A stretch of DNA of 37,444 nt from a virus: positions 1 to 37,444 of the IMG/VR virus record IMGVR_UViG_3300044957_000447. One strand, 5' to 3'. Numbering within the stretch: the first letter of the stretch is position 1; every line of letters starts with the position of its first letter. Positions 4,280 to 36,665 of the stretch are shown here, in pieces. The translations under genes were made by a program, and so were the position numbers. The notes under the pieces were generated by a model. It had not been told where the DNA came from and searched no databases. It saw only the letters and a list, made by a program, of their open reading frames with translations.

Positions 4280-4861
4280 TTATATATATTCTTTTTGCTC
4301 ATATAATTCACCAATATTAACCGGCTTCACTTCACCAGTCAATTTGTTACGAATGTATATAGTATTGTGAAACCCCAAACACTCATCAATAATTAATAGT
4401 GACAAAGCTGTTGAACGACCTGCGGTGCCAGCACTAGATACCGCTTTGATTTGAGATCCATTTTTAAGACGCAGTGATAGACGATTGTCTTCTATACATG
4501 GAACCTTTAACCAAGCTGGAAGATTATCATTTGCAAACCTAACTTTTGTAACGATTTCTTTTGCGGTTTCTTGAGTAATACTAATACAGAGAATATTCTT
4601 ATCACTGTGAAACGTCATCAACCATAAACTATAAGCCGATGTGAGCGTGCTAATGCCCATCTGTCTACTTTTAAGAACTATGTTAAGACTGTTTTCAACG
4701 AAATCTTTAAGTGTACTTTCTTGAAATGGATACAACTCAAAGTTTACAGTTCCTCTTACAGGATGTTGTATTTTAACATACTTTTTTATGAAGTATATAG
4801 GGTCTTCTATACACTTCTTATATTCACTTTTTATTATTTCTCTTAGATTTGGCTGACTCAT
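4280..4861 (-). CDS. terL: Large terminase N-terminal gene: ATPase half plus split-intein N-half
   Basis: First half of the packaging ATPase. Residues 1-160 are extein: an adenine-binding/Q-motif region (ELYPFQ, 42-47), a deviant P-loop LKSRQMGIST (63-72), a central ATPase strand region (NILCISITQETAKEIVTKV), and a Walker B strand ending LLIIDE (155-160). In T4 gp17 this acidic pair is followed by CAFI; here residue 161 starts an intein instead. Residues 161-193 are the intein N-part, then a stop. The P-loop lacks Lys just after Gly; a Lys five residues earlier (Lys64) could serve, as in lambda gpA (KSARVGYS). The start overlaps the previous gene by 38 bases and has a good AGAGG six bases upstream. 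This protein alone cannot be a working terminase; it needs trans-splicing. Confidence 0.92.
   Translation of the reverse strand: MSQPNLREIIKSEYKKCIEDPIYFIKKYVKIQHPVRGTVNFELYPFQESTLKDFVENSLNIVLKSRQMGISTLTSAYSLWLMTFHSDKNILCISITQETAKEIVTKVRFANDNLPAWLKVPCIEDNRLSLRLKNGSQIKAVSSAGTAGRSTALSLLIIDECLGFHNTIYIRNKLTGEVKPVNIGELYEQKEYI
4283..4381 (-). other. N-terminal half of a split intein (IntN, 33 residues)
   Basis: Residues 161-193 of the upstream terminase gene. It begins with Cys1 in CLGFHNTIYIRNKLTGEVKP and continues VNIGELYEQKEYI before a TAA stop. This matches intein block A and the strand after it, with the typical IxELY pattern. The split comes before block B, unlike DnaE-type split inteins, which break after about 100 residues, so it is an atypical split site. 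It should bind the C-part encoded at 3864-4202 and join LLIIDE to CAFIDG. Confidence 0.9.
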
Positions 4862-7295: not shown

Positions 7296-8801
7296 TTATT
7301 TCCGAATCCATTCAAATTTCATATGTCCACAGTCCCAAATTCTATCATAATCATTAAGTTGCATATTTTGCCATTCACTTAAATTATTATCAAACTTGTC
7401 AAGTTTTTTACTTAATTTATGTTTTTGGAAATGGGTTCTTTCAATTAGTACACCTTTATTTTTATGAAAATAATGATATCCAGGAGGAGTATTATCAACA
7501 AAACTCAGCCCAATTTGATTGTATAAATTACCAGTAAATAACCGTCTATCACTGTATGTCACAATAGAATTTACAGCATAGTTTTTTGTAAAATAATCAA
7601 ATAATTTAGAAGCGCCCCCTATGACATTTGTATTCAATAAATTACAGTATCTAGACAATTCGTACTGATATTTTTTGTCATATCTGGATTTAACAAATGT
7701 CATCAAGCAAACCAAGTTGTCTGCATAGTATAAACTCAATCTTATAGAAGATGTATCATCTCCCTGTATATGATTATTAATGAGAAAGGTTGATTTATCA
7801 TCATTATTTACCTCTTTAATAATACATTTTCTAGCATAAATTTTTTTAGATTTACCAATTTTATTTAATAAAATGCTTTTTATTATATCTTGTTTACATC
7901 TCCATTCCCAATCCCATATGTGCATCAAATTTATATTTTTATTTGAAGATAATGTTGTTTTATTTAAATGATAATCTTTATTTTTACCACCCGCAAGTTC
8001 ACTGTGCCAATATATTCCGTCACATTCTATACCTAAATTTAAATGCGGCATTACAATATCAATTTCTTCTCCGTCTAATACACTTCTATCGTGGTGTTTC
8101 GTTGTAATATTATGTGAATGTAAAAAACCCAAAATTTCAGTTTCAATTGAAGATTTAAACCTATTATGTGGATTGCATATTAAACATCTAGGTATATTTC
8201 CTGAATATAAATTATCTTCAAACTCATTATTACATATACAACATTTGAATTTATATAAATTATTATAATCTGTCCCTACATATTCACTTTTGTTAAATAA
8301 TGGAGTAACTATACCTTTCAATCTATTTCCTTCAAAAATGTTATGTAAAGATTCTTGAATTTTATGAGTTCTTCGTTTTTCCTTTACCGATGATAATTGA
8401 GATATATTATCAATGTTATTATTTTCCAAATATTGTTTATATTTTTCAGACTTAAAACCAATTTCCCCACTATTAGCTCTTTCTTTTGTTTTTTTAAGAG
8501 TATTTGGAGACACATTCATGCCATACTTCTCATTGTTGGTTTTTAACATTTTTTCTCTATTATTAAAATTTTTATCTCCGTATTTCTCCAGTTTAGTTTT
8601 TTTGCTTTTTTCTAAATTATTGTAATTTTCATCGCCATATCTCTCTTTTAAAGTTTCTTTCATTTTGGAAATCATATTATCATATGCACCATTTTCCCTT
8701 TTCCGTTTTATTTTTTCTTTAACACTGGGCAATTGTGATGGATGATATACACCATATTTTTTAAAAAACGATTCTCTAATTTTTTTACCTCTTTCAGTCA
8801 T
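7296..8801 (-). CDS. Free-standing Vsr-like homing endonuclease
   Basis: About 501 residues from ATG 8801. This start has AGGAG eight bases upstream; an in-frame TTG at 8807 is too close to it. The N-terminal 140 residues carry repeated KYG-type motifs (KKYGVYHPSQ, ERYGDENYNN, EKYGDKNFNN, EKYGMNVSPN), typical of modular DNA-binding repeats of homing enzymes. A zinc-ribbon-like Cys cluster follows (CCIC and CLIC). The nuclease core shows EEIDIVMPHLNLGIECDGIYWHSE with Asp248, Glu259, Asp261 and His266, fitting the Vsr-fold EDxHD homing endonuclease family (I-Bth0305I type). The C-terminal domain (INNHIQGDDTSS, YSDRRLFTGNLYNQIGL) is often linked to such nucleases. It should cut a specific site and promote its own spread. 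That family is known from fractured phage genes with split inteins, and a split intein lies 3 kb away. Confidence 0.85.
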   Translation of the reverse strand: MTERGKKIRESFFKKYGVYHPSQLPSVKEKIKRKRENGAYDNMISKMKETLKERYGDENYNNLEKSKKTKLEKYGDKNFNNREKMLKTNNEKYGMNVSPNTLKKTKERANSGEIGFKSEKYKQYLENNNIDNISQLSSVKEKRRTHKIQESLHNIFEGNRLKGIVTPLFNKSEYVGTDYNNLYKFKCCICNNEFEDNLYSGNIPRCLICNPHNRFKSSIETEILGFLHSHNITTKHHDRSVLDGEEIDIVMPHLNLGIECDGIYWHSELAGGKNKDYHLNKTTLSSNKNINLMHIWDWEWRCKQDIIKSILLNKIGKSKKIYARKCIIKEVNNDDKSTFLINNHIQGDDTSSIRLSLYYADNLVCLMTFVKSRYDKKYQYELSRYCNLLNTNVIGGASKLFDYFTKNYAVNSIVTYSDRRLFTGNLYNQIGLSFVDNTPPGYHYFHKNKGVLIERTHFQKHKLSKKLDKFDNNLSEWQNMQLNDYDRIWDCGHMKFEWIRK

Positions 8802-8809
8802 ATACAATA

Positions 8810-8908: not shown

Positions 8909-11900
8909 TCAGACATTAAAAGATGCGCCCGTAGGAAGTATGTTGAAATCAAGTATGATGAATTCAGCAGTACGGGCTGGTTGAATAAAAATTTGACCAT
9001 ATAGAATATTTCTATCTATCAAATCAGGCGTATTATTTGTATCATCCATCTTAACTTGGAAGGCAAAGATACCATTTCTTTGTTGTACAGATTCCAAATA
9101 TGGATTTACAATACTCAAGAAACGATTTCTTGTGGCGGCAACATTTTGTTCGAATACCAAGTAGTTGCTGCTGCTTGCTATAAACTTCTTCAAGTTGATC
9201 AACAAGCGGCGAACATTAATACGATCCAAAGCACTTGGAGCGATTTGAAGTGTCTTTTGACCCCAGACACAGATACCTTGACCAGGGAATGCTGCGATTG
9301 GATTTACACGACCTTCATAGAGAGTGTCACGTTCACTGTGAGTTACTCTATCAAGCACTTGTACAGCTTGTGTAATTCCACCACGATTCAAACCGGCTGG
9401 AGCGAACCATTCAGCAGCAGCATTATCGTTAGCAGCATAAATTGCTGGTAATACAACACTTGGTGGTACACTGATAATCTTGTTAGTATTTGTATCCAAG
9501 ATCTTAACCCAAGGATAATATGTGGCAACATAGTTACTGTCGATTGTAGCTACACTGTTGATAGCAGCATCAATCAATCCTACGGTTTGATTACTTGCTG
9601 GGAACACTACATTGTCCATGATGTAGAAACAATCTTGACGAGTTTCACACATGTCAATTACTAACTGTGTAACATAACTATGTTGTTCACGGAAGATACC
9701 AGGCAACACTATCAAGTTGATGTCAAATTCATCGGGATTACCGAGAGCAGCAATAGCTTGTTTATAACCGATGCTACCTGGGCTATTGATATTTGTACAA
9801 TCTAAACCTTGTGTATTACCGGCGGTAATATCACTGCCTACATTGATAGGAATTGCTGGCCATTGACCATCAAATCCGCCTTGAAAACCTACGATAAACT
9901 TACGAAGTCTAACATAAGTGCTTTCATTTACAGCATCATATGTACTTGGAATACTACCACTCAAGCTTGGAGCGAGTAATGAACCTGTACTTGCTGATAC
10001 ACCTTGAGCATAATATTTAGCAATCGATGTGCCCCAAACTTTATCTTCGAGATCGAAATCAATATTCAACCCATTACTATCTACACTTCCAAAGTATGGA
10101 AGAGGTTTGAAATATTGCTTTGTATCAGTATCGACACCTACACCAAATGATGAGGTTGGATAAAGTTTTTGAATTTCATCACTGGCTTCTGGTAATCCGC
10201 CAAAAACTGTACCAGATGGATATTTACCAGGGCCTAACCCGTAAATACTAGCTTTACTATATTTTACAGTAGGTATATAAATGTTTGCTGTACTATCAAT
10301 TGGTGTAAGATAAGATTCAAATCCGTAAGGAACACATGTGCTTGGATAAGCAATATCATTCGTTTCAATTCTGATATACTTACTTAAAGTATTATATGTT
10401 CCGAATTCTATAATCTTACCAGCGAAAGTAATATAAGCATACTTATCACCAATTTTACGAGCAATAAAGTTTGCACTATTAGGATCTAAGTTACAGTTTT
10501 GGAATATTTCCAAATACTTAGGACGTTTATCAGTATCACTATAAGCACGAACTGCCAATGTAAATGTACCGTAGTCGCTTCCAGGTACTGTACCTGCTAA
10601 CTTGACATTACTAATTTCAATCTTATACTTTTGATTGCTTAATGTACCATCACTCAAAGTATGAACCTTGAACAACTTAAATTTAGTTGGTACAGCGGCT
10701 TCGTTTGCACTACCTTTAAATGGAGCAATTTTTTGACTGTAGATCCACGGTGTCTTAGCATTTGTGATACTAAATTGGCTATCGCCAGCGTTTAAGTTTG
10801 TACTATATTGATCGACAAACTTAAGTGGTTCTCCAACAAATGAACTGCCTGAAAGATCACTGGTACCTACCATCAATTTCCAACCTAATGTACTTGTCTT
10901 TTCAGCTACGAATTTTTTAATACTATCTTCGAATAATACATAATTGTAAGCAGCTTCAACTTTTTGACCAGCAATTTGTTTTGATGGGTTACCTACCGTA
11001 GGATTTGTACCAAATACATCTTTAATATAGTTATTATCACTTTCATTTAATGTGAAATCATAATAACCATATGTTCCGGAAGAAGTACTTCCATCTGGAT
11101 TGACAAAGTTATACTTAAGTGCTAAATTATAAAGATTTTCATTAGGATTAATAACTCCCTTATATGGGAATGTACTACTTGTTACTTGTGAAAGCGTTGT
11201 AGTATTAAATCCATATACTTCAAAATCATTACTAAATTGTGTTGAAGCATTTTGTGTATTAGCTAATACGGCGACAATCATTTTTTGACGGCCATCAATG
11301 TTTGGATTACATGCATCTATACCATCATTATTATCGCTTGGTGTAAATGTTCCATCGTATTTACCATATTCACCACTTATAACACCGTTTAATTCAACTC
11401 CAGAACTACAAGCGCCTGATATTCTTACCGAAGCAAAACTTGCACTGTTTAAGTCAACATCTGTATTAGCTTCGTAGTTAAAATTATTAGTATTGACTGT
11501 CAATGTGTGATTAAAATATGAAGAACTTAACAAATAAGTTGTTGTAGTACTTTCATCGAATGCTGTAGATATTGCTGTTTCAGGTGAAACATCTTGACCT
11601 TGAACACTTGATGTTAAATAAAAGTAAGGTAATTTTAGACCTACGCCTTTTCTATTAAATACAACATTGGTTATTGTACCAATTTGAATAGTTTTGCCTG
11701 CATATAGTATACTACCACTTAAATCAGCGGCGTCCCCTCCATTTAATTGACTAGTAACAATTGCTGATGTAGCAGATATATCACCGAAGGCCGCTGTAAT
11801 ATCACCTGATAACGACAGTCTTGATATATCATATCTCGAAAGTATTTTTACAGAAGATGATAACCCCGAACCAGGATTTCCTGTTGAATTGCCACCAATA

Positions 11901-12907
11901 CTAGCAGTATAAAAACTAATATTTTGTTTTGAACGTGCAAATACAAATCCGTAGTTGATGTCAGAACCAACTTGAGTAAATGAATTTGTTAAATAATTTA
12001 AATACAAAGGTCTGGCCATTGGTGCTTTATTAATACTTCCACTTCCAGCGTCATTCCAAGCAGTATCAAATGTAAGTACATGGGTGGCCGGCCCGCCCTC
12101 GCCCTCCTTGACCAGTGATCCAGAAACACTTAAACTTCCACTTACGCGAGAAAGTTCAGGATGAAATGGCGCTAATGTGTAACCCGAGGTTTTATCAACT
12201 TTTTTACCATTTTTTGTAACAGATGTACTGAATCTATTACTTAATTCACGGGTAGTAATACTAAATAATTTACCTTTACTTGCAGATGTATATAATAAAC
12301 TATTTAACGTGGATATATTTGGTAAATCACCTAATGCTGTAATAAATGTATCAATACTTGATGTAGCTATACTACCTGTAATTTTACTAAACTTTAACGA
12401 AGCTGACATGAATCCAGACGGTTTATTACCACCTAAATCGGATGATCCAGTTATATTCCAAATTGAACTACTGTGTTGATAATTAAATGTCGATAGATAA
12501 TTTCCACTATCAACTGAAATAAACGAATCCTCACTTAATGCACCCAAATCCTCGTTTCTACCCCATGTACCTGGTTGAGCAAAAATGATCAATGGATTCT
12601 TCTGCCAGTAGCCTGTAAGACCGCCTACACGAACCACTGTTACAATACCTTGTTCTTGAAGATATTGTTTTGCTGTATATGGTCCGTAATAAACTCCATC
12701 TGCTACTCCGAATGTAGATTCTAAAGTTGATACTTCGGTCATTGTTTTTGGAAAAAATGCTGGACCGTCAGCAAACGGAGCAACTATAGCTCCACCTATG
12801 TTAGCGACTCCTTGCGCTAGACCTGATAAATCGTTTTCTCTGGTAAATACACCAGCACTTACTATATTTTGAGTTGGGGCGAATTTTCCACCTTCTGTTA
12901 TTGGCAT
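8909..12907 (-). CDS. gp18: Contractile tail sheath protein (gp18-like), very large
   Basis: Subunit of the tail sheath that contracts to drive the tube through the host envelope. The N-terminus (TQNIVSAGVFTRENDLSG, then FAPFADGPAFFPKTMTEV and TVVRVGGL, about residues 1-110) and C-terminal third (about 990-1332) match T4-type sheaths. The latter has FIVGFQGGFDG, NVRRLLINLKKFIASSSNYLVFEQN, and DRNILYGQIFIQPARTAEFIILDF. Between them lie roughly 870 residues rich in Ser, Thr, Gly and Asn that the 659-residue T4 gp18 lacks; they probably form extra surface domains. The gene stands alone, with a candidate late promoter 60 bases upstream, an AAAGGA Shine-Dalgarno sequence and a strong terminator behind it, fitting a protein needed in many copies. 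A short GC-rich patch interrupts the insertion. The sheath call is strong; the role of the insert is unknown. Confidence 0.93.
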   Translation of the reverse strand: MPITEGGKFAPTQNIVSAGVFTRENDLSGLAQGVANIGGAIVAPFADGPAFFPKTMTEVSTLESTFGVADGVYYGPYTAKQYLQEQGIVTVVRVGGLTGYWQKNPLIIFAQPGTWGRNEDLGALSEDSFISVDSGNYLSTFNYQHSSSIWNITGSSDLGGNKPSGFMSASLKFSKITGSIATSSIDTFITALGDLPNISTLNSLLYTSASKGKLFSITTRELSNRFSTSVTKNGKKVDKTSGYTLAPFHPELSRVSGSLSVSGSLVKEGEGGPATHVLTFDTAWNDAGSGSINKAPMARPLYLNYLTNSFTQVGSDINYGFVFARSKQNISFYTASIGGNSTGNPGSGLSSSVKILSRYDISRLSLSGDITAAFGDISATSAIVTSQLNGGDAADLSGSILYAGKTIQIGTITNVVFNRKGVGLKLPYFYLTSSVQGQDVSPETAISTAFDESTTTTYLLSSSYFNHTLTVNTNNFNYEANTDVDLNSASFASVRISGACSSGVELNGVISGEYGKYDGTFTPSDNNDGIDACNPNIDGRQKMIVAVLANTQNASTQFSNDFEVYGFNTTTLSQVTSSTFPYKGVINPNENLYNLALKYNFVNPDGSTSSGTYGYYDFTLNESDNNYIKDVFGTNPTVGNPSKQIAGQKVEAAYNYVLFEDSIKKFVAEKTSTLGWKLMVGTSDLSGSSFVGEPLKFVDQYSTNLNAGDSQFSITNAKTPWIYSQKIAPFKGSANEAAVPTKFKLFKVHTLSDGTLSNQKYKIEISNVKLAGTVPGSDYGTFTLAVRAYSDTDKRPKYLEIFQNCNLDPNSANFIARKIGDKYAYITFAGKIIEFGTYNTLSKYIRIETNDIAYPSTCVPYGFESYLTPIDSTANIYIPTVKYSKASIYGLGPGKYPSGTVFGGLPEASDEIQKLYPTSSFGVGVDTDTKQYFKPLPYFGSVDSNGLNIDFDLEDKVWGTSIAKYYAQGVSASTGSLLAPSLSGSIPSTYDAVNESTYVRLRKFIVGFQGGFDGQWPAIPINVGSDITAGNTQGLDCTNINSPGSIGYKQAIAALGNPDEFDINLIVLPGIFREQHSYVTQLVIDMCETRQDCFYIMDNVVFPASNQTVGLIDAAINSVATIDSNYVATYYPWVKILDTNTNKIISVPPSVVLPAIYAANDNAAAEWFAPAGLNRGGITQAVQVLDRVTHSERDTLYEGRVNPIAAFPGQGICVWGQKTLQIAPSALDRINVRRLLINLKKFIASSSNYLVFEQNVAATRNRFLSIVNPYLESVQQRNGIFAFQVKMDDTNNTPDLIDRNILYGQIFIQPARTAEFIILDFNILPTGASFNV
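12081..12113. other. GC-rich patch inside the sheath gene
   Basis: A 33-base stretch that is mostly G and C within an otherwise AT-rich gene. On the minus strand it encodes part of SLVKEGEGGPATHVL, using GGC, GGG, CCG and GCC codons that are rare around it. The reading frame stays open. Confidence 0.6.
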
Positions 12908-12993: not shown

Positions 12994-15129
12994 TTATAAT
13001 TCTTTGTCTTTTATCAAACGTTCAATAACTTTTATAACCATTTCGGGTGTAATTGACTTTGTACATTCAAATAATTCTTTTTTGTTTGGTTTAGGACACC
13101 ACATCCAATCTCCTTTATCAAATAGTTCGTCATTCCAACATCCTGTACAAACATTATGATTTTGTACACGATACGGAGTTTTAAATTCTGTATAAGAGTA
13201 TGAAAATCCACTTATTAATACGGTTGGAACTCCAACAGCCCATGCTAACCATGATAATCCAGATGGTAGACCTATAAAAAACTCACAGTGGTGAAGTTGA
13301 TTGATTCTTTCTTTTAGTGGGTGGTCGCCTGTAAAATCCAATGCGTTACTAGGCATGTTATTTATATGTGTAGATAATCCGTATTTTTTATGTTTATCTA
13401 TACAAATTACTTCGTATCCTATAGAATTTAAATAACTTATTACTTTTTCCCAACCACCTACATTATTCCAATATTTTGCTTGAGCCGTACTTTGAGTAGC
13501 AATTGCCACATATTTTTTATCAATTGGTCTCTGTAATATTTCATAATCTAAGAAGGGTGGTTCAGCAACATATGTAAGGCCTAAATAATCGCTTGCAATT
13601 TTTTGTAAAGGAACTTTTCTAGGGTCGTTTTTATTTCTATCTTTATTGTAATCATTATTATCAACATACCAACCTATCTTATAAGTTGCATATAAATTCA
13701 ATCCATCAACATTATCAACGAATTTTATATGAGGATATTTCTTAGCAAATAAATAATTTAATTGGAACTTGACAAATAAATTACAATTATGTTTTTTTCT
13801 AAACTGTTCGACGACAGGCATCCAAGCTAACTGATCGCCTAGTGAATTTGATTCGTATTCTATTAATACATTTTTATTTTTCAAATTCAAATCCGCAGTG
13901 TACAAAATTTGTTCATTTTTATTTTTTATTGTTATATTGATGGGAGTATAATAATTTGTATTACACGCTGCCCACCAACCGTGTTTTATATCGCAAGTAA
14001 ATTTTACAGTATTTGTAGATGTATCTGTGAACGATACATTAAACACCTCTTCTTCATTTGTCGGATTTTCTACTTCTACGGTTGGTCTATCATTGAAATG
14101 ACAATTAAAAATTGGTGGTAAACTAATCGAAGTTTCAGACTTGCTTAGATTTTCATAGACATTTATAAATTTGTTAGCAAACAATTTTTCTGTAAATTCG
14201 TCATACAAGTCAACGAGTTGTTTGACTCTTGATTTATAACAATTAATCGACGACATTTTTAATGCGTTTAATTGATAAGATGCGTAATTTTTGGTAATGT
14301 CATTAATGGCGTTAACTATTTGTTTAACATCACGTTCTACAACTATCATGCCATCGTAAACTTTATCTTCAAATGTACCTACTACGGGCAACCCACAACT
14401 CATTGCTTCTAATAAAGTTAGATTTGGATGTCCGGCCTCTAATTCGGAAGCGTGAATAAAAATTGAATGTCGGTTATATAACTCCACCAACTCGGATTCA
14501 GTTAAATCGAAAACCTTTGTCAACTTAGAATAGTTATTTAATTTATCGTCTAATTTTTCGAAAAAATTCTTATTATTAGATGGACCAGCAATTGTTATAG
14601 GATAATCTAACTCCATTGCGGCTTCTATAGCATACTTAAAACCTTTTCTGTCAAAAGATGTATTATTTGCATATCCGTTATTTGCAACACACAATAATTT
14701 ATTTATAGGCTTTTCATAACTTAAATATTTGAATTCCTCGGTATTTACGGCGTGCGAAAAATATCTAAGTTTTTTACTTCCAAAATAGTCAACCAGATAT
14801 TTTGCTGGACAGGTAGATATTACACTTTTCTCTATAGCTTCTAAATTTTGTTTAAATACAAACGAATCTTTTCCATACAAATATGCGTGGTGATCATGAA
14901 TGGTAAAAATATATGGTATTCCTCGTTTATGACATTCAATTGCTAAATTAGCAACGTGTACATGGACGATTGTATCGTCTGTGTAATTTATATCATCTAA
15001 ATATTTAATTTCACATGGCAATCCCATCGCATTTAAATTTTGATGATATTCCCATACAATTTTTTCTATTGCACCCCATCCATTTGGTGGTATTGGAAGT
15101 AGTCCTAAATGTACTTGTATAACTTTCAT
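12994..15129 (-). CDS. Bifunctional glycosyltransferase: GT4-like domain plus autotransporter heptosyltransferase (BAHT)-like domain
   Basis: 711 residues, two sugar-transfer modules. Residues 1-320 are GT-B/GT4-like: GWGAIEKIVWEYHQNL near the start and the EAGHPNLTLLEAMSCGLPVV donor-binding signature at 231-250. A beta-rich linker (about 340-415) follows. Residues 420-705 resemble autotransporter heptosyltransferases (TibC/Aah, BAHT type): SLGDQLAWMPVVEQFRKKHNC (429-449), GLPSGLSWLAWAVGVPTVLISGF (620-642), and four cysteines at 661, 664, 678 and 689. The spacing C-x2-C-x13-C-x10-C matches the metal (iron) finger idea of that family. Known members put heptose on serines of surface proteins. 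The stop is 86 bases before the sheath start, and the start overlaps another glycosyltransferase by ATGA. A virion protein or a host glycan could be the target; this is inference. Confidence 0.85.
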   Translation of the reverse strand: MKVIQVHLGLLPIPPNGWGAIEKIVWEYHQNLNAMGLPCEIKYLDDINYTDDTIVHVHVANLAIECHKRGIPYIFTIHDHHAYLYGKDSFVFKQNLEAIEKSVISTCPAKYLVDYFGSKKLRYFSHAVNTEEFKYLSYEKPINKLLCVANNGYANNTSFDRKGFKYAIEAAMELDYPITIAGPSNNKNFFEKLDDKLNNYSKLTKVFDLTESELVELYNRHSIFIHASELEAGHPNLTLLEAMSCGLPVVGTFEDKVYDGMIVVERDVKQIVNAINDITKNYASYQLNALKMSSINCYKSRVKQLVDLYDEFTEKLFANKFINVYENLSKSETSISLPPIFNCHFNDRPTVEVENPTNEEEVFNVSFTDTSTNTVKFTCDIKHGWWAACNTNYYTPINITIKNKNEQILYTADLNLKNKNVLIEYESNSLGDQLAWMPVVEQFRKKHNCNLFVKFQLNYLFAKKYPHIKFVDNVDGLNLYATYKIGWYVDNNDYNKDRNKNDPRKVPLQKIASDYLGLTYVAEPPFLDYEILQRPIDKKYVAIATQSTAQAKYWNNVGGWEKVISYLNSIGYEVICIDKHKKYGLSTHINNMPSNALDFTGDHPLKERINQLHHCEFFIGLPSGLSWLAWAVGVPTVLISGFSYSYTEFKTPYRVQNHNVCTGCWNDELFDKGDWMWCPKPNKKELFECTKSITPEMVIKVIERLIKDKEL

Positions 15130-17165
15130 TTTTTGAACCTTATATATCCATTAATACCTATTTCTTCTAAAGTTTTAAATGTTTTTATATACGATCTAAG
15201 TATTTTATTTGTTTCATCCAAAATTATATTTTCAACTTCATATTCATTTTCATTCTCAAATTTATATGGTAAATAAAACCCTTCTTTAGATTTTACTTTA
15301 AACGTAAAGGTTTCCACAACCGTGCCATTCTTTTTAATAATCATTTTATTAAATCGATCATCTAATTTATTATTAAATGTACTAAATACAACGAATTTTT
15401 TTTCATTTTCAACTGGCAACACAGTCAGATATTCGACCATCGAAAATATATTTGTTTTGCTGTTTGAAAAATAAGTTTCTTCATTATTGGAATAATCGAC
15501 ATATATAGAGTTCAAATTATTTTTCAACCTTTGATAATAAAATTGTTCCAATCCATTACTGGTTTGATTTAAATTTACTAAATTAGTATACTCTTCTGTA
15601 GTATAATATTTGAATGTATCCAAATAAAAATCAATGTTTATACCGTGAAATACTGTTTTTAAAGTTTCTCCCTCAAGAGCCTTATCAAAAAAGAAAAAAC
15701 CTTTTTTTAATTTTAAAATATCAAACACTTCGTCTAACTTTTCAAAATCTTTATCACCGATTATTAAATCGTAATTATAACAAACTGCTTCATCAAATCC
15801 CAAAGACTTAGCAAAATGAAGTCCATTATAATAATTTGTCAATACAGCCAATCCATGATAGTCATCTGACTCACACGACTTAAAATTTAACTTAGCTTGA
15901 AAATTTTCATCATCATGGTTCCATGTGCTATAAAAATTATGCTTCAGCATAGGATTATTTTTATCATAAATATAATAATCTACGATATTTTGAATATCTT
16001 CATTCACAGGAAAATGTGAAGATAATATTACTTTATATCCAGATTTTTTTGCTTGTATAACTGATAATTTTGTGGTATCTGATATCGATTTACGATATGG
16101 ATGTGTTGATATAACAATCACTGATTTATTTTTGTCCACTTTTTTATCAACATTAACATCGACTACTTCAACATCAATAAAGTTATTATTGATGGTTTTT
16201 TTCTCCGAAATGTTTAGCTTTTCCCTTATTAATTCTACATTGTGATAAAAATCTGATTCATCAAGATAGTCTATAGTAGAATATTCCGAGTATCTATTTA
16301 AATAGACGGAAAGATTATATAGTAAAGATGGCACATTATAAGATATAGCCTCTTTTATGACGATTGGAGCAGTTTCTTTATCATTTGCGTGGCCTCTGCT
16401 TGTGAATAAAAAAAGATCCATACAACTGTAAAAATTGTCCACATCTTTTCTCTCACCCCACAACTTTACATTTGATGGCAAATTATTAATTAATGGTTCC
16501 CAATAAAATTTAAAATTATCTGCCATATTTCCAATACAATGAAACTGAACATTTTCGTCCTCCATCATTCTGGCATATTCGATAAATTCTTGTTGATTTT
16601 TTCTAGGTGTAAATAAACCAACATGAAATACGTGTTTTTTATTTACATCCAAACCTAGAAAATTTAGTCCTTCATCTCTACTTTTTCTTAGTTTAACACC
16701 AACCGGATATTCTATAACTTCCGAATCGATCTTTAAAGATTCAACATTTTGTTTTTGATATCTACTTACAAAAATAAATTTGTCTGGAAAAACTCTCTTT
16801 CGTCTGCTATCAAAACTACTATCGTGTGAAGTTTCTATGATAGTATAAGTTCTATTTCTAGCATAGATTTTTTTAGCCAGAGATAAATCCATAAAATATT
16901 CAGGCATTTCTTCAAAATGAATGAAATCCGGATTAATTTTTTTTATTAAATTTAATATTTCACCTTTGTCATCGCCTAAACTAAAAAATCTATCTCCGCA
17001 AATTTGTCGAACTTGATCTCTCTGAACAATAAAAATACCACTGTGATTACTATATTCTATACAATATATTTCATACTCATCTTTTAATGATTTTATTTTC
17101 TTCAAAAGAAATTGAGGCAATCCTCCAGTAGATAAGTGGGGCGACACACACAACAGTTTTTTCAT
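15126..17165 (-). CDS. Two-domain glycosyltransferase (GT4-like N-terminal half)
   Basis: 679 residues. The N-terminal half (1-330) looks like a GT-B enzyme: VSPHLSTGGLPQFLLKKI near the start, HVFHVGLFTPRKNQQEFIEYA (179-199) at the start of the second Rossmann domain, and an E-x7-E pair Glu264/Glu272 in ETAPIVIKEAISYNVPSLL. A charged linker (about 325-345) leads to a second module (about 347-545: SVIVISTHPYRK, KSLGFDEAVCYNYDLIIGD) that looks like a GT-A/sugar-nucleotide type domain, less certain. The last 80 residues seem beta-rich. It overlaps the BAHT-like gene by four bases (ATGA), so the two enzymes are probably made and act together, perhaps building one glycan in two steps. Acceptor and sugar are unknown. 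A TATAAATA five bases before the start is too close to be a normal late promoter. Confidence 0.75.
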   Translation of the reverse strand: MKKLLCVSPHLSTGGLPQFLLKKIKSLKDEYEIYCIEYSNHSGIFIVQRDQVRQICGDRFFSLGDDKGEILNLIKKINPDFIHFEEMPEYFMDLSLAKKIYARNRTYTIIETSHDSSFDSRRKRVFPDKFIFVSRYQKQNVESLKIDSEVIEYPVGVKLRKSRDEGLNFLGLDVNKKHVFHVGLFTPRKNQQEFIEYARMMEDENVQFHCIGNMADNFKFYWEPLINNLPSNVKLWGERKDVDNFYSCMDLFLFTSRGHANDKETAPIVIKEAISYNVPSLLYNLSVYLNRYSEYSTIDYLDESDFYHNVELIREKLNISEKKTINNNFIDVEVVDVNVDKKVDKNKSVIVISTHPYRKSISDTTKLSVIQAKKSGYKVILSSHFPVNEDIQNIVDYYIYDKNNPMLKHNFYSTWNHDDENFQAKLNFKSCESDDYHGLAVLTNYYNGLHFAKSLGFDEAVCYNYDLIIGDKDFEKLDEVFDILKLKKGFFFFDKALEGETLKTVFHGINIDFYLDTFKYYTTEEYTNLVNLNQTSNGLEQFYYQRLKNNLNSIYVDYSNNEETYFSNSKTNIFSMVEYLTVLPVENEKKFVVFSTFNNKLDDRFNKMIIKKNGTVVETFTFKVKSKEGFYLPYKFENENEYEVENIILDETNKILRSYIKTFKTLEEIGINGYIRFKK

Positions 17166-22183: not shown

Positions 22184-24811
22184 TTAAGTATCCCATTTAA
22201 CAACAATATTTATCGGAATTTCTCCTGTATTTTTAATTGGTTGTGCTAATTTTGCAATCGCCACCAAATTAGATTCATTGTATAATCCAACCGTTGTAAT
22301 ATACGGAGCTAAATATGATCCAGTTGGATCAACTGATGAACTATAGTTGTATTGAAAGAATTGTGGTTTGATGTAATTTTTGCTAAACTTTCCTGTTTTT
22401 TCGTTCAAGAAAGAAACCATGTCATTGTAGTTGGTCCGTCTCGATCTTGGATTTATATAATCTTTGTAATTATTTATAGTTAGATCTTGTATAAAATACT
22501 TCCATATAGATGTTCCATCTTGAACGTTTACAACTCCGTCAGCATTCACATCAAAATTTATATAAGAACATTTATTTTTTAATTGTTCTGTCAATCTGTT
22601 ATCTTCATAATTTACAAATGAAGATGTGTAGAAATTAAATATTGATTCTTCAATGTCGCCGTTTACAAAATTGTTCCACCATTTTTCTGAGTTTGTGGTA
22701 GTAATATTGTAATTTATATATCTTAGTATTAAATCCAAATTGTTAAAATCAAATGTAGAGGTATTACTTATTCCGTAATCAAATACAGAAGAAGTTACGG
22801 CGGAAGGGTTTGTAGATATATTAAATTCACCGGGATCAACTGTGCAAATATATTGTTTTTCAAATAAAGATATTTGACTTTGATACTGCATGTATAAATA
22901 AGGTTTTTCTGAATCTCTTGGATCTAATGTTAGATTTTTAAGTATACTGCCTGTATTGTTTATTATAATTTTATTATTGTTGTAAAATATATTTCCAACT
23001 ACATAATCTTTTTCCAAATCCGATATATTATATATAAAAGCTTTTCCAAATATATTTTCGCCAATATTATAATATTCACCTTGCTCGTCAACGAAAACTG
23101 CCAACTCTGTACACGCACCGGATACTGCTCCAGACAAATCGCACGATAAACATTCTTCCATTCTAAAGTAGATTAAAGCAGAAGAAGTTTCACAAGTTTC
23201 ACTTTGATATGATGATGTATGAAGATAACCAGAAAATTTAGAATCAACACTAATGCTGCCTGATTCTGTGATTAATAATCCAGATAAATGAAAGTCGTCA
23301 TTTAACGGAATTGGTGCGCCAATAGCCAAATTACTATCAGATACTGACACAGAATAACCAAATGCCGTAAATGGTTTTCCAAACTCTTTTCGTTTAGCAA
23401 TTGGTTGCGAAGTCAATTGCTTTACACTAGATCCAGTTATATAATAGAGTAAACTTTGACCACAGTATGTGGATTCTCCAAAATCATTTTGATTAAAAGT
23501 GACATCGTAGTAATCTATCGAACTGGATATAAACAAAGAACTAAAAGGAAAATATGGTTTAGGAGATCCAACCAACAATTTTTTATTATAAACTGATACA
23601 GAATAACCAAATAAATTGTCTTTAAATGTATTGTTATCTCCATATAATTTGGCTATTAATTTAAAATCGCTGTTAACATCAGTTGAACATTGTTGATTAT
23701 CGTAAACATACACACTACCTCTTTGTCGTAATGTATTTGAACCAGAATATTCCCAATAAACCAAATCGTTAGGTGCTCCGATTGCCAATACCGTATTGTA
23801 CAATGAGACCGAATATCCAAATCTAGAATTTATCTGACTTCCGCTTGGCCAAAGTTCGACGGTAGAATTTTCTATATTATAATAAACCGAACTGGTGTTC
23901 TGATTGAAAGTTTGAGACAACTGCCATCCATTTGAAGAAGATGTGTATAGATATACGTATGATCTTGATAATTGGTTACTTCCAACTATTATTTTATCCT
24001 CTAAATATTTATCTAAACATATTGTGTGTCCAAAACCATATTGTTCTGGGTACGAAGATAAATCACACGTTAACCGCGATTCAAATTTATATATACAATT
24101 TGTATCGGTATATTTGTATATATAAACGGCGCCTCTGCCACCATTGTAATTTGGAGCGCCTACTGCTAAATATTTATTGGTGACACTCACCGAATGTCCA
24201 AACTTTTCTAAAACAGACCCGGATATAGAACACAATGGATAAGAATTTATTTCATAATTGTTGATGTAATTTGAAGAATTAGCTGATACTTCGACCAAAT
24301 ATCCACTTGAATTTAAAAAATAATTCGGATTAACAACATAAATATCGACTGATGCTAGGGATAAGGTTTGTCCAAAATAAAAACTACCGGTTACGCCCGT
24401 ATCACCTATTGCCAAGAAATACTCTGAAATATCTATAGCAGAACCATAATTCGACTGATATATAACACTGTTTCCATCTTCAATTATAAGATAACTACAT
24501 GATGTAGTTGTATCATTCAGATTTCCTGAGTCTTTAACCAAGGACGCTGTATATACAGTGCTACTACTTTGTTCTGTATAGTATGTTGGAAAATAACTGG
24601 AATTTGAATCCAAATGTTTATGTAATATTTTAACGGTTTGGTAATTTGAATTGAATTCGTCTTTTTTAATTACATAAACTTGTCCAACTCTGCTTATGCC
24701 TTCATAAGGATCATACGATTTATACGGAGGATTTCCAACTACAACAAAATTACCGTTGGTAACAACTGAAGTACCATAATTTTGATTAAATATGTTCTCT
24801 AAATTGGCCAT
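22184..24811 (-). CDS. Integrin-like FG-GAP beta-propeller tail protein with dockerin-type calcium loop
   Basis: 875 residues, probably a virion adhesin. Seven FG-GAP-like repeats are visible: YGTSVVTNGNFVVVGNP (12), YGSAIDISEYFLAIGD (122), FGHSVSVTNKYLAVGAP (204), FGHTICLDKYLEDKIIVGS (260), FGYSVSLYNTVLAIGAP (331), FGYSVSVYNKKLLVGSP (401) and FGYSVSVSDSNLAIGAP (484). Seven such blades would close a propeller like that of integrin alpha chains. Residues 754-765 (DVNADGVVNVQD) fit a calcium-binding dockerin or EF-hand loop. The last 65 residues (PYITTVGLYNESNLVAIAKLAQPIK) match the end of the 371-residue protein at 25656-26771, suggesting a common docking module. No signal peptide, as expected for a virion protein. 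A late promoter lies 61 bases upstream. The propeller call is good; the ligand is unknown. Confidence 0.8.
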   Translation of the reverse strand: MANLENIFNQNYGTSVVTNGNFVVVGNPPYKSYDPYEGISRVGQVYVIKKDEFNSNYQTVKILHKHLDSNSSYFPTYYTEQSSSTVYTASLVKDSGNLNDTTTSCSYLIIEDGNSVIYQSNYGSAIDISEYFLAIGDTGVTGSFYFGQTLSLASVDIYVVNPNYFLNSSGYLVEVSANSSNYINNYEINSYPLCSISGSVLEKFGHSVSVTNKYLAVGAPNYNGGRGAVYIYKYTDTNCIYKFESRLTCDLSSYPEQYGFGHTICLDKYLEDKIIVGSNQLSRSYVYLYTSSSNGWQLSQTFNQNTSSVYYNIENSTVELWPSGSQINSRFGYSVSLYNTVLAIGAPNDLVYWEYSGSNTLRQRGSVYVYDNQQCSTDVNSDFKLIAKLYGDNNTFKDNLFGYSVSVYNKKLLVGSPKPYFPFSSLFISSSIDYYDVTFNQNDFGESTYCGQSLLYYITGSSVKQLTSQPIAKRKEFGKPFTAFGYSVSVSDSNLAIGAPIPLNDDFHLSGLLITESGSISVDSKFSGYLHTSSYQSETCETSSALIYFRMEECLSCDLSGAVSGACTELAVFVDEQGEYYNIGENIFGKAFIYNISDLEKDYVVGNIFYNNNKIIINNTGSILKNLTLDPRDSEKPYLYMQYQSQISLFEKQYICTVDPGEFNISTNPSAVTSSVFDYGISNTSTFDFNNLDLILRYINYNITTTNSEKWWNNFVNGDIEESIFNFYTSSFVNYEDNRLTEQLKNKCSYINFDVNADGVVNVQDGTSIWKYFIQDLTINNYKDYINPRSRRTNYNDMVSFLNEKTGKFSKNYIKPQFFQYNYSSSVDPTGSYLAPYITTVGLYNESNLVAIAKLAQPIKNTGEIPINIVVKWDT

Positions 24812-24872: not shown

Positions 24873-24880
24873 TATTTATA
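24873..24880 (-). promoter_or_regulatory. Late promoter TATAAATA upstream of the propeller gene
   Basis: An exact match to the T4 late promoter on the minus strand, 61 bases before ATG 24811 and overlapping the last codons of the previous gene. The position fits a leader of about 50 bases. It could drive the propeller gene and the 107-residue gene, and perhaps the genes beyond. Confidence 0.55.
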
Positions 24881-25622
24881 CACAACTAAATTCGCCTGTA
24901 CATATGTATTTTGCGAGTCCTTGTTCACAGTAATTTACTACACTTCCTGTATTTTCAGCAGATCTTTCAAAATCGTTGATAAAATATGTACCCGATAAAA
25001 ATAAATTATTATAACCATCGTCGTGAATGTTTGCAACCACATCTCCAGTTTGATTATTTATAATAACGCTAAATGGTCGAATTTTATCTCCGCTTTGCGT
25101 GACATTTAATGAATATAAACCAAATGTATTAGACAAATTTAATTTTGCTTGTGAAGTAATGTATCCATCAAACCCAAAAATGTTATACGAATTGTTATAA
25201 TTATTATAAAACATGTTTTTTATAGTATTATAAACCAGACCTTGATATGTTCCATCCTCATTAACAGGATTTACATCAAAATTATATTGTATATCGTCCA
25301 CCGTATAAAATGGAATATCAGATGTATATTTTTTACCGATTTGAAAATGTGGATTATTTTCGTCGATAATTGGAGAACAAGCCAAGTATCCGCTTTCATT
25401 TAATACATTATATTGACACGACTCAAATATCGTTGTCAATGATTCTGATACATTTGAAGTATTAAAATTGTAATTACACTCTTCAATTGGAATTAATAGT
25501 GGAAATGAATAATTTTTATCATTTGCCAATATCAAATCCAAGAACAAATTGTTTGCTGTCTTTTGTTTAGACACAGCAAAATTTGCGATCTGAATATCTT
25601 GATTTTTTAAAAATTTAACCAT
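24876..25622 (-). CDS. Virion-type protein of unknown function
   Basis: 248 residues, family not recognised. It is rich in Asn, Tyr, Phe and Ser with predicted beta structure throughout (PLLIPIEECNYNFN, IRPFSVIINNQTGDVVANIHDDG). Six or so cysteines are spread out, and the C-terminus is cysteine-containing (NYCEQGLAKYICTGEFSCV). No membrane segment or signal peptide. Its place among tail and baseplate genes and its composition suggest a tail or adhesin subunit. The start ATG follows directly on TTAGG, too close for a working Shine-Dalgarno sequence. Confidence 0.6.
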   Translation of the reverse strand: MVKFLKNQDIQIANFAVSKQKTANNLFLDLILANDKNYSFPLLIPIEECNYNFNTSNVSESLTTIFESCQYNVLNESGYLACSPIIDENNPHFQIGKKYTSDIPFYTVDDIQYNFDVNPVNEDGTYQGLVYNTIKNMFYNNYNNSYNIFGFDGYITSQAKLNLSNTFGLYSLNVTQSGDKIRPFSVIINNQTGDVVANIHDDGYNNLFLSGTYFINDFERSAENTGSVVNYCEQGLAKYICTGEFSCV

Positions 25623-25655: not shown

Positions 25656-26771
25656 TCAAAAATCTATCCGAACCTTAATCAAAAGTTCGTTGTCAAATGA
25701 TTTTTGAGCGGGTGCGCTTAATTTTCCGATTGCCAATAATTCATTGTTAAAATCGTACAATCCAACCGTGGTTATGTAAGTTCTTGGATTTGTAATCAAC
25801 TCTGGATAAATTATAGTTCCTCTCGTTTGTCCGTCTGTACCATCAGACACAAATGTCGGATTGTTACTATAATTAAATTCTTTATTTTTAACTCTAACAA
25901 AGTAATTGGATGATGGAACAAATTCGGATTTACGAACTGCCATATTTTTGTTTGATTTTTTCAAACTCAAATAGAATTTTCTCAACCAATTTCTCCAGTA
26001 ACCTTTAAACGATGTTGAGTAGAAATTGGAAGTTCTAGTAGTTGTAATTTCTTGATTAGGAGTTGCAGCCGTAATACCAACCTTAGCATCTAATTTTATA
26101 GCATTTAATATTACTACTCCATTTGTTGGATAAAATAGACCCATTCCTTCATAATATGCACTGGTAGAGCCTCCATTCGTAAATGGAGTTGGAACTCCGT
26201 TTACTACGGATCCAGAAATTAAATTATACACATTTTGTTGAACATTTATAACTTGAGAATCGTCGATATAGGAATATTGACCATTTGCACCGCTAAAATT
26301 TAATTGAATTTGACCAGGATCAATTTGATCCTGGAATTTGTCGGCCACATAGTTCAAAACAAAAATTGCAGTGCTATCAACCGATTTATCAATACTTCCA
26401 GATGCAAAGCTAAAGTAGTTATCGCCCGGTTGTAACAGCGTATTTTTATACTGTGTATAAATCACCTTAGTTTCGTTTGTCAAAACATCTGCGGTACCAT
26501 TGTTTGGATAATCTAATTTGCTACTTCCACTATTTTCATAGTCACCATATGCTATGGAAAAATATTCATCTCCACCACTGTATACATCAATATAATATTG
26601 TCCATTTTTAACATCATACGGAGATGATCCTGTCAAAACATTGGCCTGTGCGGATGATGTAATGAATGTAGACTGTGCGATTGTTAAACTTCCAGTGCCA
26701 AACATACCAGAAGAAACTTGATTTATTCTTCCTGCTACAATATCGTCGGTTGTAAATTTAGTAAATATCAT
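25656..26771 (-). CDS. Tail/baseplate structural protein sharing a C-terminal module with the propeller protein
   Basis: 371 residues, no T4 homologue recognised. The N-terminal part is rich in Ser, Gly and Asn and looks beta-structured (SGMFGTGSLTIAQSTFITSSAQ, YFSIAYGDYENSGSS). A basic segment (YWRNWLRKFYLSLKKSNKN, about residues 265-284) follows. The last 75 residues (FVRVKNKEFNYSNNPTF and YITTVGLYDFNNELLAIGKL) closely resemble the end of the 875-residue propeller protein. That module is therefore probably how both attach to the same tail or baseplate partner. Eleven bases after its stop codon's far side the upstream 214-residue gene ends, so the genes are transcribed together. Confidence 0.65.
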   Translation of the reverse strand: MIFTKFTTDDIVAGRINQVSSGMFGTGSLTIAQSTFITSSAQANVLTGSSPYDVKNGQYYIDVYSGGDEYFSIAYGDYENSGSSKLDYPNNGTADVLTNETKVIYTQYKNTLLQPGDNYFSFASGSIDKSVDSTAIFVLNYVADKFQDQIDPGQIQLNFSGANGQYSYIDDSQVINVQQNVYNLISGSVVNGVPTPFTNGGSTSAYYEGMGLFYPTNGVVILNAIKLDAKVGITAATPNQEITTTRTSNFYSTSFKGYWRNWLRKFYLSLKKSNKNMAVRKSEFVPSSNYFVRVKNKEFNYSNNPTFVSDGTDGQTRGTIIYPELITNPRTYITTVGLYDFNNELLAIGKLSAPAQKSFDNELLIKVRIDF

Positions 26772-34281: not shown

Positions 34282-36261
34282 TTATACTACTATCCCCCTT
34301 ATGTCAGAATCTGGAAATTTAACTTCAAATACAGCAGGATCTTTAGGAGGATATATTATATTATTTTGTGTTGCTATACTCATGCTATATGCAATTGGAG
34401 AGTAGTTTCCATCGTCTATAGTTAAATTTTTAATACTAATTTCGCTCACAGATTGAACACCCTCATTTTGCATTATTTCAAAGTTTATCTGACTCAAATT
34501 GATAGGTTGATTAAAACTCCAATTATCGATATCAAAGAAATTTTTTACAGATTGTACGCACGCATTTAATACTTCAAATTTATTGAAACCCTTAAATACG
34601 GTTATTTTAAATTGAACATCGATGTTTATAATGTATCCATCAATTATGTTTATTCTGTCGGTAAGAATTTTATAATTTTCTAAATATGTAATTAAATTTT
34701 CTAATGTTGCCTGATTTATTTGAGTTAAATTTTTATTAGCATCATATCCCAATAGATACAAATTGTTTGTAAATGGATTATTGGATTGTAAAAATTTTCT
34801 TCTATCCAACGGATTCAACGGAGTGAGATCTACAGTCGTATTATTCAATGTATTTGTCAATCCGTTAATCAATCCATTGTATTGAACTTCTCTGGTCAAA
34901 TTACTTTGTACAAATCCTTTAGATATATTACCAAGTTCGGGTGGTAACGCATATACTCTCAACAAAAAATCGTCCTCGGTAACCATTCTGTTTTGTGAAG
35001 AAAAATTTAAAATAGCATTTTGTCTTATTTCTTCATCTGTTTCTGCGTCAGCTCCACCAGTTGAGGACTCAACATTATTTACATTGAGTGAATTTTTAAT
35101 ATTATTCAATAATATAACCTCACTATCTGTAAGTGCAGTTACATCATTCATATAAGATACAGCGTTTATTTTATTTATGTCCCCAGAATTTACATTTGAG
35201 TTTAAACCACCACCAATAATGTATGTTACTGTTAGTGTTGTATTTGATGGTGATACACCATATGAATTGGCTTTTAATACATTCGTGTTATCTAATGAAA
35301 TGTTTAGATTCTTTAAGTTAGAAAGTGCTACACCAACATTTGTAGGGTTTGGTATAACAACAGTATTATCATAATTTTCAGTGTTTGCGCCGAATTGAAT
35401 TGTAGTAATATTATTTTCATTAACAGTAGTAACAAACCGCATTTCGGTTCTCAAATATTTTAATATTTTCGGAGTTTCACTTCTGTATTGTGATAGAGTT
35501 TGATTGTTTAATGGAACATTATCTATTTGGATAGGAATTGTATCTTGTGCGAGATAATTAACTTCGTAGTAATTATTGTTGTTATTATCAACAATACTTA
35601 TTATCTTTAATACATTTGTTTCATCTAAAGATATTGTCAAAAATGGAACTGCATCTGTAACTGAAAATTGTTTTGTTATTATTTTTCCAGAATAAGCTCT
35701 TGCAGATTTTTTGATCAAATAAAATTGCGGTGCTCCTGTATTATCACGATTGTATACAGTAATTTCTCTTGGAGAAAACTTTGTGTCTTGACTAAAATCT
35801 ATACTATCCTCAATAATAAAATCAACGCCAGCACCACTGCCTAATTGAGTAAATGGTTGTAATATTAAACAATATCTTTCATCCGGTACATATTCATTGT
35901 TTGATGTTCTCAATGCAGGCAATAGTTGAAATACATCCACTATTGTAGACGATGCGGATGACACTTTAGGTTTATATCCCAGATATCTCGCCGCATTAAT
36001 AATGTTTCTACGATCTTTTGCAAACTGAATAAAACTTTCAAAAAACTGTTGATCGGTGTAGTATGATAACACATCGCCTACATAAGCGGCTTGTTCAATG
36101 AATATTTGTCCTGGGGAACTTTCACTGAAATCTTTATATGATTGGGGATAATACTGCTTTGTAAAATCAATCAACTGTTGACGAAGAGATGAAAAATCTC
36201 TATTAAGATAATTAATATCCTTGGTGTTTGCATTAAAAGTTTTATTGATTAATTTTGCCAT
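34282..36261 (-). CDS. gp6: Baseplate wedge protein gp6
   Basis: 659 residues, almost the same as T4 gp6 (660). It forms the inner baseplate ring that opens when the sheath contracts. The start (NYLNRDFSSLRQQLIDFTKQ, then PGQIFIEQAAYVGDVLSYYTDQQ, FAKDRRNIINAARYLGYKP) is the N-terminal part typical of gp6/baseplate J proteins. A TGGADAETDEEIRQNAI stretch (about 398-414) and RMVTEDDFLLRVYALPPELG (about 422-441) are the J-domain core. The last part (QPINLSQINFEIMQNEGVQSV) matches the C-terminal domain. Its start overlaps the gp25 stop by one base (TAATG), so translation is coupled. Strong call. Confidence 0.9.
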   Translation of the reverse strand: MAKLINKTFNANTKDINYLNRDFSSLRQQLIDFTKQYYPQSYKDFSESSPGQIFIEQAAYVGDVLSYYTDQQFFESFIQFAKDRRNIINAARYLGYKPKVSSASSTIVDVFQLLPALRTSNNEYVPDERYCLILQPFTQLGSGAGVDFIIEDSIDFSQDTKFSPREITVYNRDNTGAPQFYLIKKSARAYSGKIITKQFSVTDAVPFLTISLDETNVLKIISIVDNNNNNYYEVNYLAQDTIPIQIDNVPLNNQTLSQYRSETPKILKYLRTEMRFVTTVNENNITTIQFGANTENYDNTVVIPNPTNVGVALSNLKNLNISLDNTNVLKANSYGVSPSNTTLTVTYIIGGGLNSNVNSGDINKINAVSYMNDVTALTDSEVILLNNIKNSLNVNNVESSTGGADAETDEEIRQNAILNFSSQNRMVTEDDFLLRVYALPPELGNISKGFVQSNLTREVQYNGLINGLTNTLNNTTVDLTPLNPLDRRKFLQSNNPFTNNLYLLGYDANKNLTQINQATLENLITYLENYKILTDRINIIDGYIINIDVQFKITVFKGFNKFEVLNACVQSVKNFFDIDNWSFNQPINLSQINFEIMQNEGVQSVSEISIKNLTIDDGNYSPIAYSMSIATQNNIIYPPKDPAVFEVKFPDSDIRGIVV

Positions 36262-36665
36262 TATATTACATTGTTATTCAGACTAAGCTCAGTTTTACCA
36301 ACTGTATTATTATATCTGAATGTTATACTTATAAATATTGAATTTTCGTCTTTATTATCAGACTGTTCTTTAGATAATTCTACATTCAATATGGTAGTGT
36401 CATTTACAAATCTATCTATATCTCGTTGTAACACATCAACAATGATATTGTTATTGACTTCTTCACCAACTGTTTGAAATAAAAGATTATACAATCCAGA
36501 CCCAAATTGATTATTGAATCTTCTTTCTCCCGGAACTGTCAATAATAAATTCTTAATATTATCTCCAATTTGAGAAATCGTAGTTGTGTTCGTTGCAAAA
36601 TATCCATTATTACCAAGTTGTATTGGTAACGATAATCCTATTGCTTTTTTTGGAGATAAAATCAT
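36261..36665 (-). CDS. gp25: Baseplate wedge protein gp25
   Basis: 134 residues, like T4 gp25 (132). It ties the wedge to the sheath and tube and belongs to the GPW/gp25 family. The signature EDGERRF-type core appears as LLTVPGERRFNNQFGSGLYNLLFQ (about 41-64). LPIQLGNNGYFATNTTTISQIG precedes it, and IDRFVNDTTILNVELS followed by ISITFRYNN is the beta-strand end. It lies directly before gp6, the order seen in T4. Strong call. Confidence 0.9.
   Translation of the reverse strand: MILSPKKAIGLSLPIQLGNNGYFATNTTTISQIGDNIKNLLLTVPGERRFNNQFGSGLYNLLFQTVGEEVNNNIIVDVLQRDIDRFVNDTTILNVELSKEQSDNKDENSIFISITFRYNNTVGKTELSLNNNVI

Follow-up and report, generated by a model that had tools for sequence, protein, structure and literature searches.

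The phages phi11, PRD1 and phiKZ each have a propeller in a receptor-binding or baseplate protein, namely the five-bladed Gp45 of phi11, P2 of PRD1, and the seven-bladed gp131C of phiKZ, which lies at the baseplate periphery (PMC4901313). The protein described here is probably also a baseplate protein of this kind, resembling them in having a propeller and built on a different anchor. FG-GAP_2 repeats themselves are carried by phages, both in the window, by which is meant the whole stretch of 37,444 nucleotides analysed (IMG/VR record IMGVR_UViG_3300044957_000447), and in the cyanophages S-TIM5, where the protein is annotated as a virion structural protein (Pfam E 1.3e-79), and S-SCSM2R, where it is annotated as TolB (E 4.9e-43). 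In contrast to the protein of the window, those of the two cyanophages lie in different genes and context and show no match to the conserved virion-protein core termed B below, in an alignment that covered the propeller part only. Among the papers searched, none combined FG-GAP with phage tail, and dockerin, bacteriophage and tail fiber came together in nothing beyond a structure-model resemblance in a phage paper. Two further likenesses are to the propeller of integrin alpha chains, which has the same seven-blade fold and supplies the best PDB matches, and to type I dockerins, with which the protein shares the loop of the second F-hand and the following helix, as reflected in profile matches. 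What appears to be new is the arrangement, in which a tail-protein core is split, a propeller occupies an exchangeable slot in it, and a dockerin-like insertion lies inside the anchor.

The propeller protein and its gene block

The protein is encoded by a single ORF of 875 aa whose coordinates, 22184-24811 on the minus strand, are exact. Its parts and neighbours, all on the minus strand, are the following:

22184-24811, minus strand: the target ORF, 875 aa, in which the propeller is joined to B2, the C-half of the B core carrying a dockerin-like insertion
23012-24790, minus strand: predicted FG-GAP_2 seven-bladed propeller, residues ~8-600 (to ~608 in the model), from Pfam, six-frame search, AlphaFold2, Foldseek and VIA
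22784-23011, minus strand: first stretch of the C-half of the B core (VGNIFY...GEFNISTNP), residues ~601-676, from hhalign
22367-22783, minus strand: dockerin-like helical insertion, residues ~677-815, missing from compact B proteins
22703-22762, minus strand: degenerate first F-hand, helix FNNLDLILRYIN lacking calcium ligands, residues 684-703, from reading of the alignment, with the helix present in the model
22517-22552, minus strand: canonical dockerin-type calcium loop DVNADGVVNVQD, residues 754-765
22187-22336, minus strand: last part of the B core (SYLAPYITTVGLY...VVKWDT), residues ~826-875, common to paralogue A
24876-25622, minus strand: B1, a 248-aa ORF of its own that encodes the N-half of the B core, from hhalign and as a conserved upstream neighbour
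25656-26771, minus strand: paralogue A, 371 aa, from hhalign against B and the tandem A-B order in many contigs
34282-36665, minus strand: genes for gp6-like and gp25-like baseplate wedge proteins, which belong to the same block and lie upstream, from PHROGs

That the feature is not a product of chance follows from the Pfam matches, the fold matches, the invariant loop and the dockerin profile hits. FG-GAP_2 (PF14312) matches the protein in three stretches with 72.9 bits against a cut-off of 23 (E 2.3e-20), and a six-frame search places it at five positions. In an AlphaFold2 model built from 16 relatives, which is confident over much of residues 10-500 and poor beyond 600, seven blades can be counted from the strand list within residues ~8-608, the last being closed by strands 487-499 and 590-595, between which runs a long loop that is poorly modelled. 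The FG-GAP repeats and the propeller of the original prediction are thus borne out, the model predicting a closed propeller of seven blades. Foldseek ranks integrin alpha chains at the top (E 1.6e-13), and VIA-align gives Z 31.5 over 358 residues against integrin alphaM and Z 28.9 against the seven-blade WD40 protein Ciao1; together with the strand list, these matches place the domain nearest to integrins, by a small margin over WD40. No DxDxDG loop is present within the propeller, the only one in the protein lying outside it at residue 754, and the calcium sites that mark the blades of integrins are therefore absent. The proposed resemblance to integrins accordingly holds for the fold and fails for an integrin-like calcium mechanism. 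Integrin leg domains are also lacking from this phage protein, which has the B core in place of the thigh and calf domains.

Enzymatic propellers exist in phage tailspikes, the K1F endosialidase being an example, and this precedent speaks for the idea that the propeller degrades surface polysaccharide in the manner of tailspike depolymerases. Such an activity is nevertheless extremely unlikely, given that Pfam, PHROGs and NCBIfam place no enzyme family in the protein and that its closest folds, integrin and WD40, are binding propellers.

The ORF lies with B1 and A downstream of the baseplate wedge genes, in a myovirus block of baseplate and tail genes, which agrees with its having been called a phage tail protein. 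Given this position, the propeller of integrin fold and the dockerin-type loop, host binding is a reasonable idea.

Other genes of the window have features of their own. The tail sheath protein (8909-12907, minus strand) has 1332 aa, the PHROG sheath matches being C-terminal, at about residues 967-1331, and among the structural genes lies an HNH/homing endonuclease gene (7296-8807, minus strand; phrog_3339, E 7e-109). Two large ORFs at 12994-17165 (minus strand) have glycosyltransferase domains (Glycos_transf_1 and Glyco_transf_9). The portal protein (1-2694, minus strand) contains an intein, with an N-terminal splicing region at residues 89-170 (E 4.6e-9) and a C-terminal one at 419-441 (E 3.9e-5), as well as HNH endonuclease matches (PHROGs). 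The terminase large subunit is encoded in two ORFs (2721-4202 and 4280-4861, minus strand) and looks like a naturally split intein: the first ORF ends in ...LLIIDE followed by CLGFHNTIYIRNKLTGEVKPVNIGELYEQKEYI and the stop, and the second begins with about 113 aa, ending in YSNDVVSHN, before CAFIDGIEEIWLS, the NCBIfam intein match on this second ORF being weak (E 0.019). We take this arrangement to resemble AceL-TerL. The name AceL-TerL occurs in PMC11766414.

The split B core and its slot

hhalign identifies A and B as paralogues (E 3.1e-26). They stand in tandem in many IMG/VR contigs, A (about 340 aa) being followed by B (about 300-380 aa), and a pattern scan listed 593 stretches encoding a relative. 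In the window, two ORFs come after A, B1 first and then the propeller ORF. hhalign aligns ORF 24876-25622 with the N-half of B (E 3.8e-9 and 5.2e-12) and the target, from residue ~603 onwards, with the C-half (E 4e-20 and 2.3e-18), relative to which residues ~677-815 are an insertion; the propeller matches no part of the single-gene B proteins. B is thus divided between two genes, the propeller lying at the point of division. This division is also seen in relatives, in which B1 is a conserved upstream neighbour of the propeller ORF. A sequencing error was considered as its source and ruled out, because the separate ORFs recur in relatives, with a 4-base overlap in two of them (L019 and L020), and because other relatives have extra genes directly upstream of the propeller ORF.

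The last 39 residues of the target resemble the end of ORF 25656-26771 with 46% identity, and the relatives of its C-terminus include compact proteins lacking both the propeller and the dockerin part. The segment formerly taken for a docking module turns out to be the C-half of a virion-protein core that is conserved and also present in A. Docking of the C-terminus on a cohesin was rejected, since this segment belongs to the core that A and B have in common. The C-terminal 280 aa gave a low-confidence structure model and no PDB match, so that the anchor role assigned to this part rests on conservation and gene order. Searches of PDB sequences with profiles of B and A found nothing beyond two chance antibody matches. 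A similarity of the motif ITTVGLY to the N-terminal domain of the P2 tail fibre (PF12571), covering 24 residues with an hhalign probability of 58% for B and 27% for A, is retained as a weak lead.

In the named phages compared, B is a single gene with a homologous core of N- and C-halves, lying directly or closely after A in the tail block, and contains neither the propeller nor the dockerin-like insertion. Flavobacterium phage immuto has a compact B (gp105) followed by genes annotated as tail fiber and tail spike. In LR756508 (484 kb), A, a compact B (a 304-aa ORF), a RuvC-like ORF and a primase-like ORF follow the order of the window with two other ORFs between, the names being given by reading. 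In the B protein of the Microcystis phage Mel-JY01 (WWT39517.1), a laminin-G domain (Pfam E 3.2e-14) is found between the N- and C-halves, in the same slot as the propeller of the window. Laminin-G is a typical carbohydrate- or ligand-binding fold.

The content of this slot bears on whether the protein could be purely structural, a baseplate or fibre-attachment component whose propeller would serve as a platform for other tail parts and make no contact with the host. A platform would fit the strong conservation of two propeller loops, NDLVYWEYSGS and KPYFPFSSLF, in relatives whose overall identity is about 48%, as well as the divergence of the propeller, only moderately above that of some other tail genes. 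However, in other phages the slot is swapped between unrelated binding-type domains or is empty, and a required platform is hard to reconcile with this, since exchange or emptiness would not be easily tolerated. A structural platform is thus considered rather unlikely.

Directly upstream of the propeller ORF, related contigs (L007, L022, L023, L026, L027, L029 and L031) carry two to six extra ORFs, some of which are glycosyltransferase-like by eye, and in L022, L023 and L026 these ORFs separate the propeller ORF from B1; the site is a cargo hotspot inside the tail block. B1 of the latter three (L022:4053-5663, L023:689-2314 and L026:2446-4089) is extended by long Thr-Pro repeats and by additional sequence at the C-terminus. 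Relatives of A occur in five MAG contigs, three of which are named Flavobacteriales/Flavobacteriaceae/Winogradskyella, and are too distant to name the host of the window phage; no relatives of the C-terminal part were found in bacterial genome contigs.

The dockerin-like insertion and its calcium loop

The calcium loop is of the canonical dockerin type, and none of 16 relatives, which reach down to 48% identity, departs from D754, N756, D758, G759 and D765 at loop positions 1, 3, 5, 6 and 12; the earlier claim of such a loop is therefore upheld. When a profile of residues 596-875 was run by hmmsearch against all PDB chains, dockerins came first (best E 1.3e-4), and 11 of the 13 matches up to E 10 were dockerins or dockerin-bearing cellulosomal enzymes. 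Across all 11 phage records searched, Dockerin_1 (PF00404) matches only the loop region of the target protein family, with the caveat that weak matches (E up to 10) also occur in 9 of 14 control genomes; the window protein scores 14.8 bits, below the Pfam cut-off of 22.9, which two relatives exceed. The canonical F-hand is one of the two that make up a dockerin. Unlike in type I dockerins, the first F-hand is degenerate, having no ligands as read from the alignment, and lies about 50 residues away, and the whole segment is inserted inside another domain. Pfam Cohesin matched nothing in the 11 related phage records, which are fragments. Given the single canonical F-hand, the dockerin score below the cut-off and the lack of Cohesin in these records, the proposed docking on a cohesin is unsupported.

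The same evidence weighs on the broader model of the original prediction, in which the protein would be an adhesin dependent on calcium, docking on a cohesin-like receptor in the fashion of integrins. The integrin-nearest fold and the invariant canonical loop are in its favour, but the model is very unlikely in view of the propeller without calcium loops, the degenerate F-hand, the dockerin and cohesin results, and the conservation of the loop region, which is higher than that of the propeller, unlike what a host-facing contact would show. Most likely, the insertion is a calcium-stabilised spacer or link and not a partner of cohesin. It is very improbable that it forms a working calcium-dependent docking module, by which the propeller head would be assembled or attached through a dockerin-cohesin type of contact with an unrecognised partner in the virion or on the host.

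Rate of change and proposed role

Among near relatives, identity to the window is 58-62% for the propeller, 57-68% for B1, 65-70% for the 1482-aa ORF, 70-76% for the C-terminal core with its insertion, 79-81% for A and 86-91% for ORF 26778. A distant group has 37-44% in the propeller and 59-62% in the C-terminal part, and in the relative L009 the replication genes are 87-91% identical to those of the window and the propeller only 58%. Mean pairwise identity in the family is 0.53 for the propeller, 0.60 for the dockerin-like insertion and 0.86 for the final core. The propeller is thus among the fastest-diverging parts of the locus, although not hypervariable. This pattern of sequence divergence agrees with a head that faces outward from a conserved anchor, but it is not proof of one, since B1 and ORF 21827, like the 1482-aa ORF, also diverge quickly.

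The protein probably serves an uncultivated, large T4-like myovirus as a baseplate-anchored, receptor-binding tail protein, with a split B core, a propeller head and a calcium-stabilised insert, and by analogy with other phages it most likely recognises the surface of the host cell. The analysis establishes the propeller fold as a prediction, the loop, the split, the insertion sites, the gene order and the faster divergence of the propeller. The B core would be an old virion protein that the lineage of the window makes as two polypeptides, B1 and B2, and these presumably come together again on the baseplate or on a fibre. The FG-GAP_2 propeller, inserted at the B1/B2 junction, where other phages have laminin-G or nothing, may project outward as the host-contacting head, and the calcium loop of the insertion inside the C-terminal core may stabilise the linker between head and anchor.

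A and B thus form a paired tail-protein family that is common in viral metagenomes and has no convincing Pfam or PHROG family. In this family, the probable outward domain is exchangeable, being either laminin-G or a propeller, or is missing, and one lineage has the gene split at the insertion point. This provides a concrete rule by which likely receptor-binding domains can be sought in large T4-like phages of unknown host, and makes the protein a clear case for asking whether a dockerin-type calcium loop has been put to new use in virus particles.
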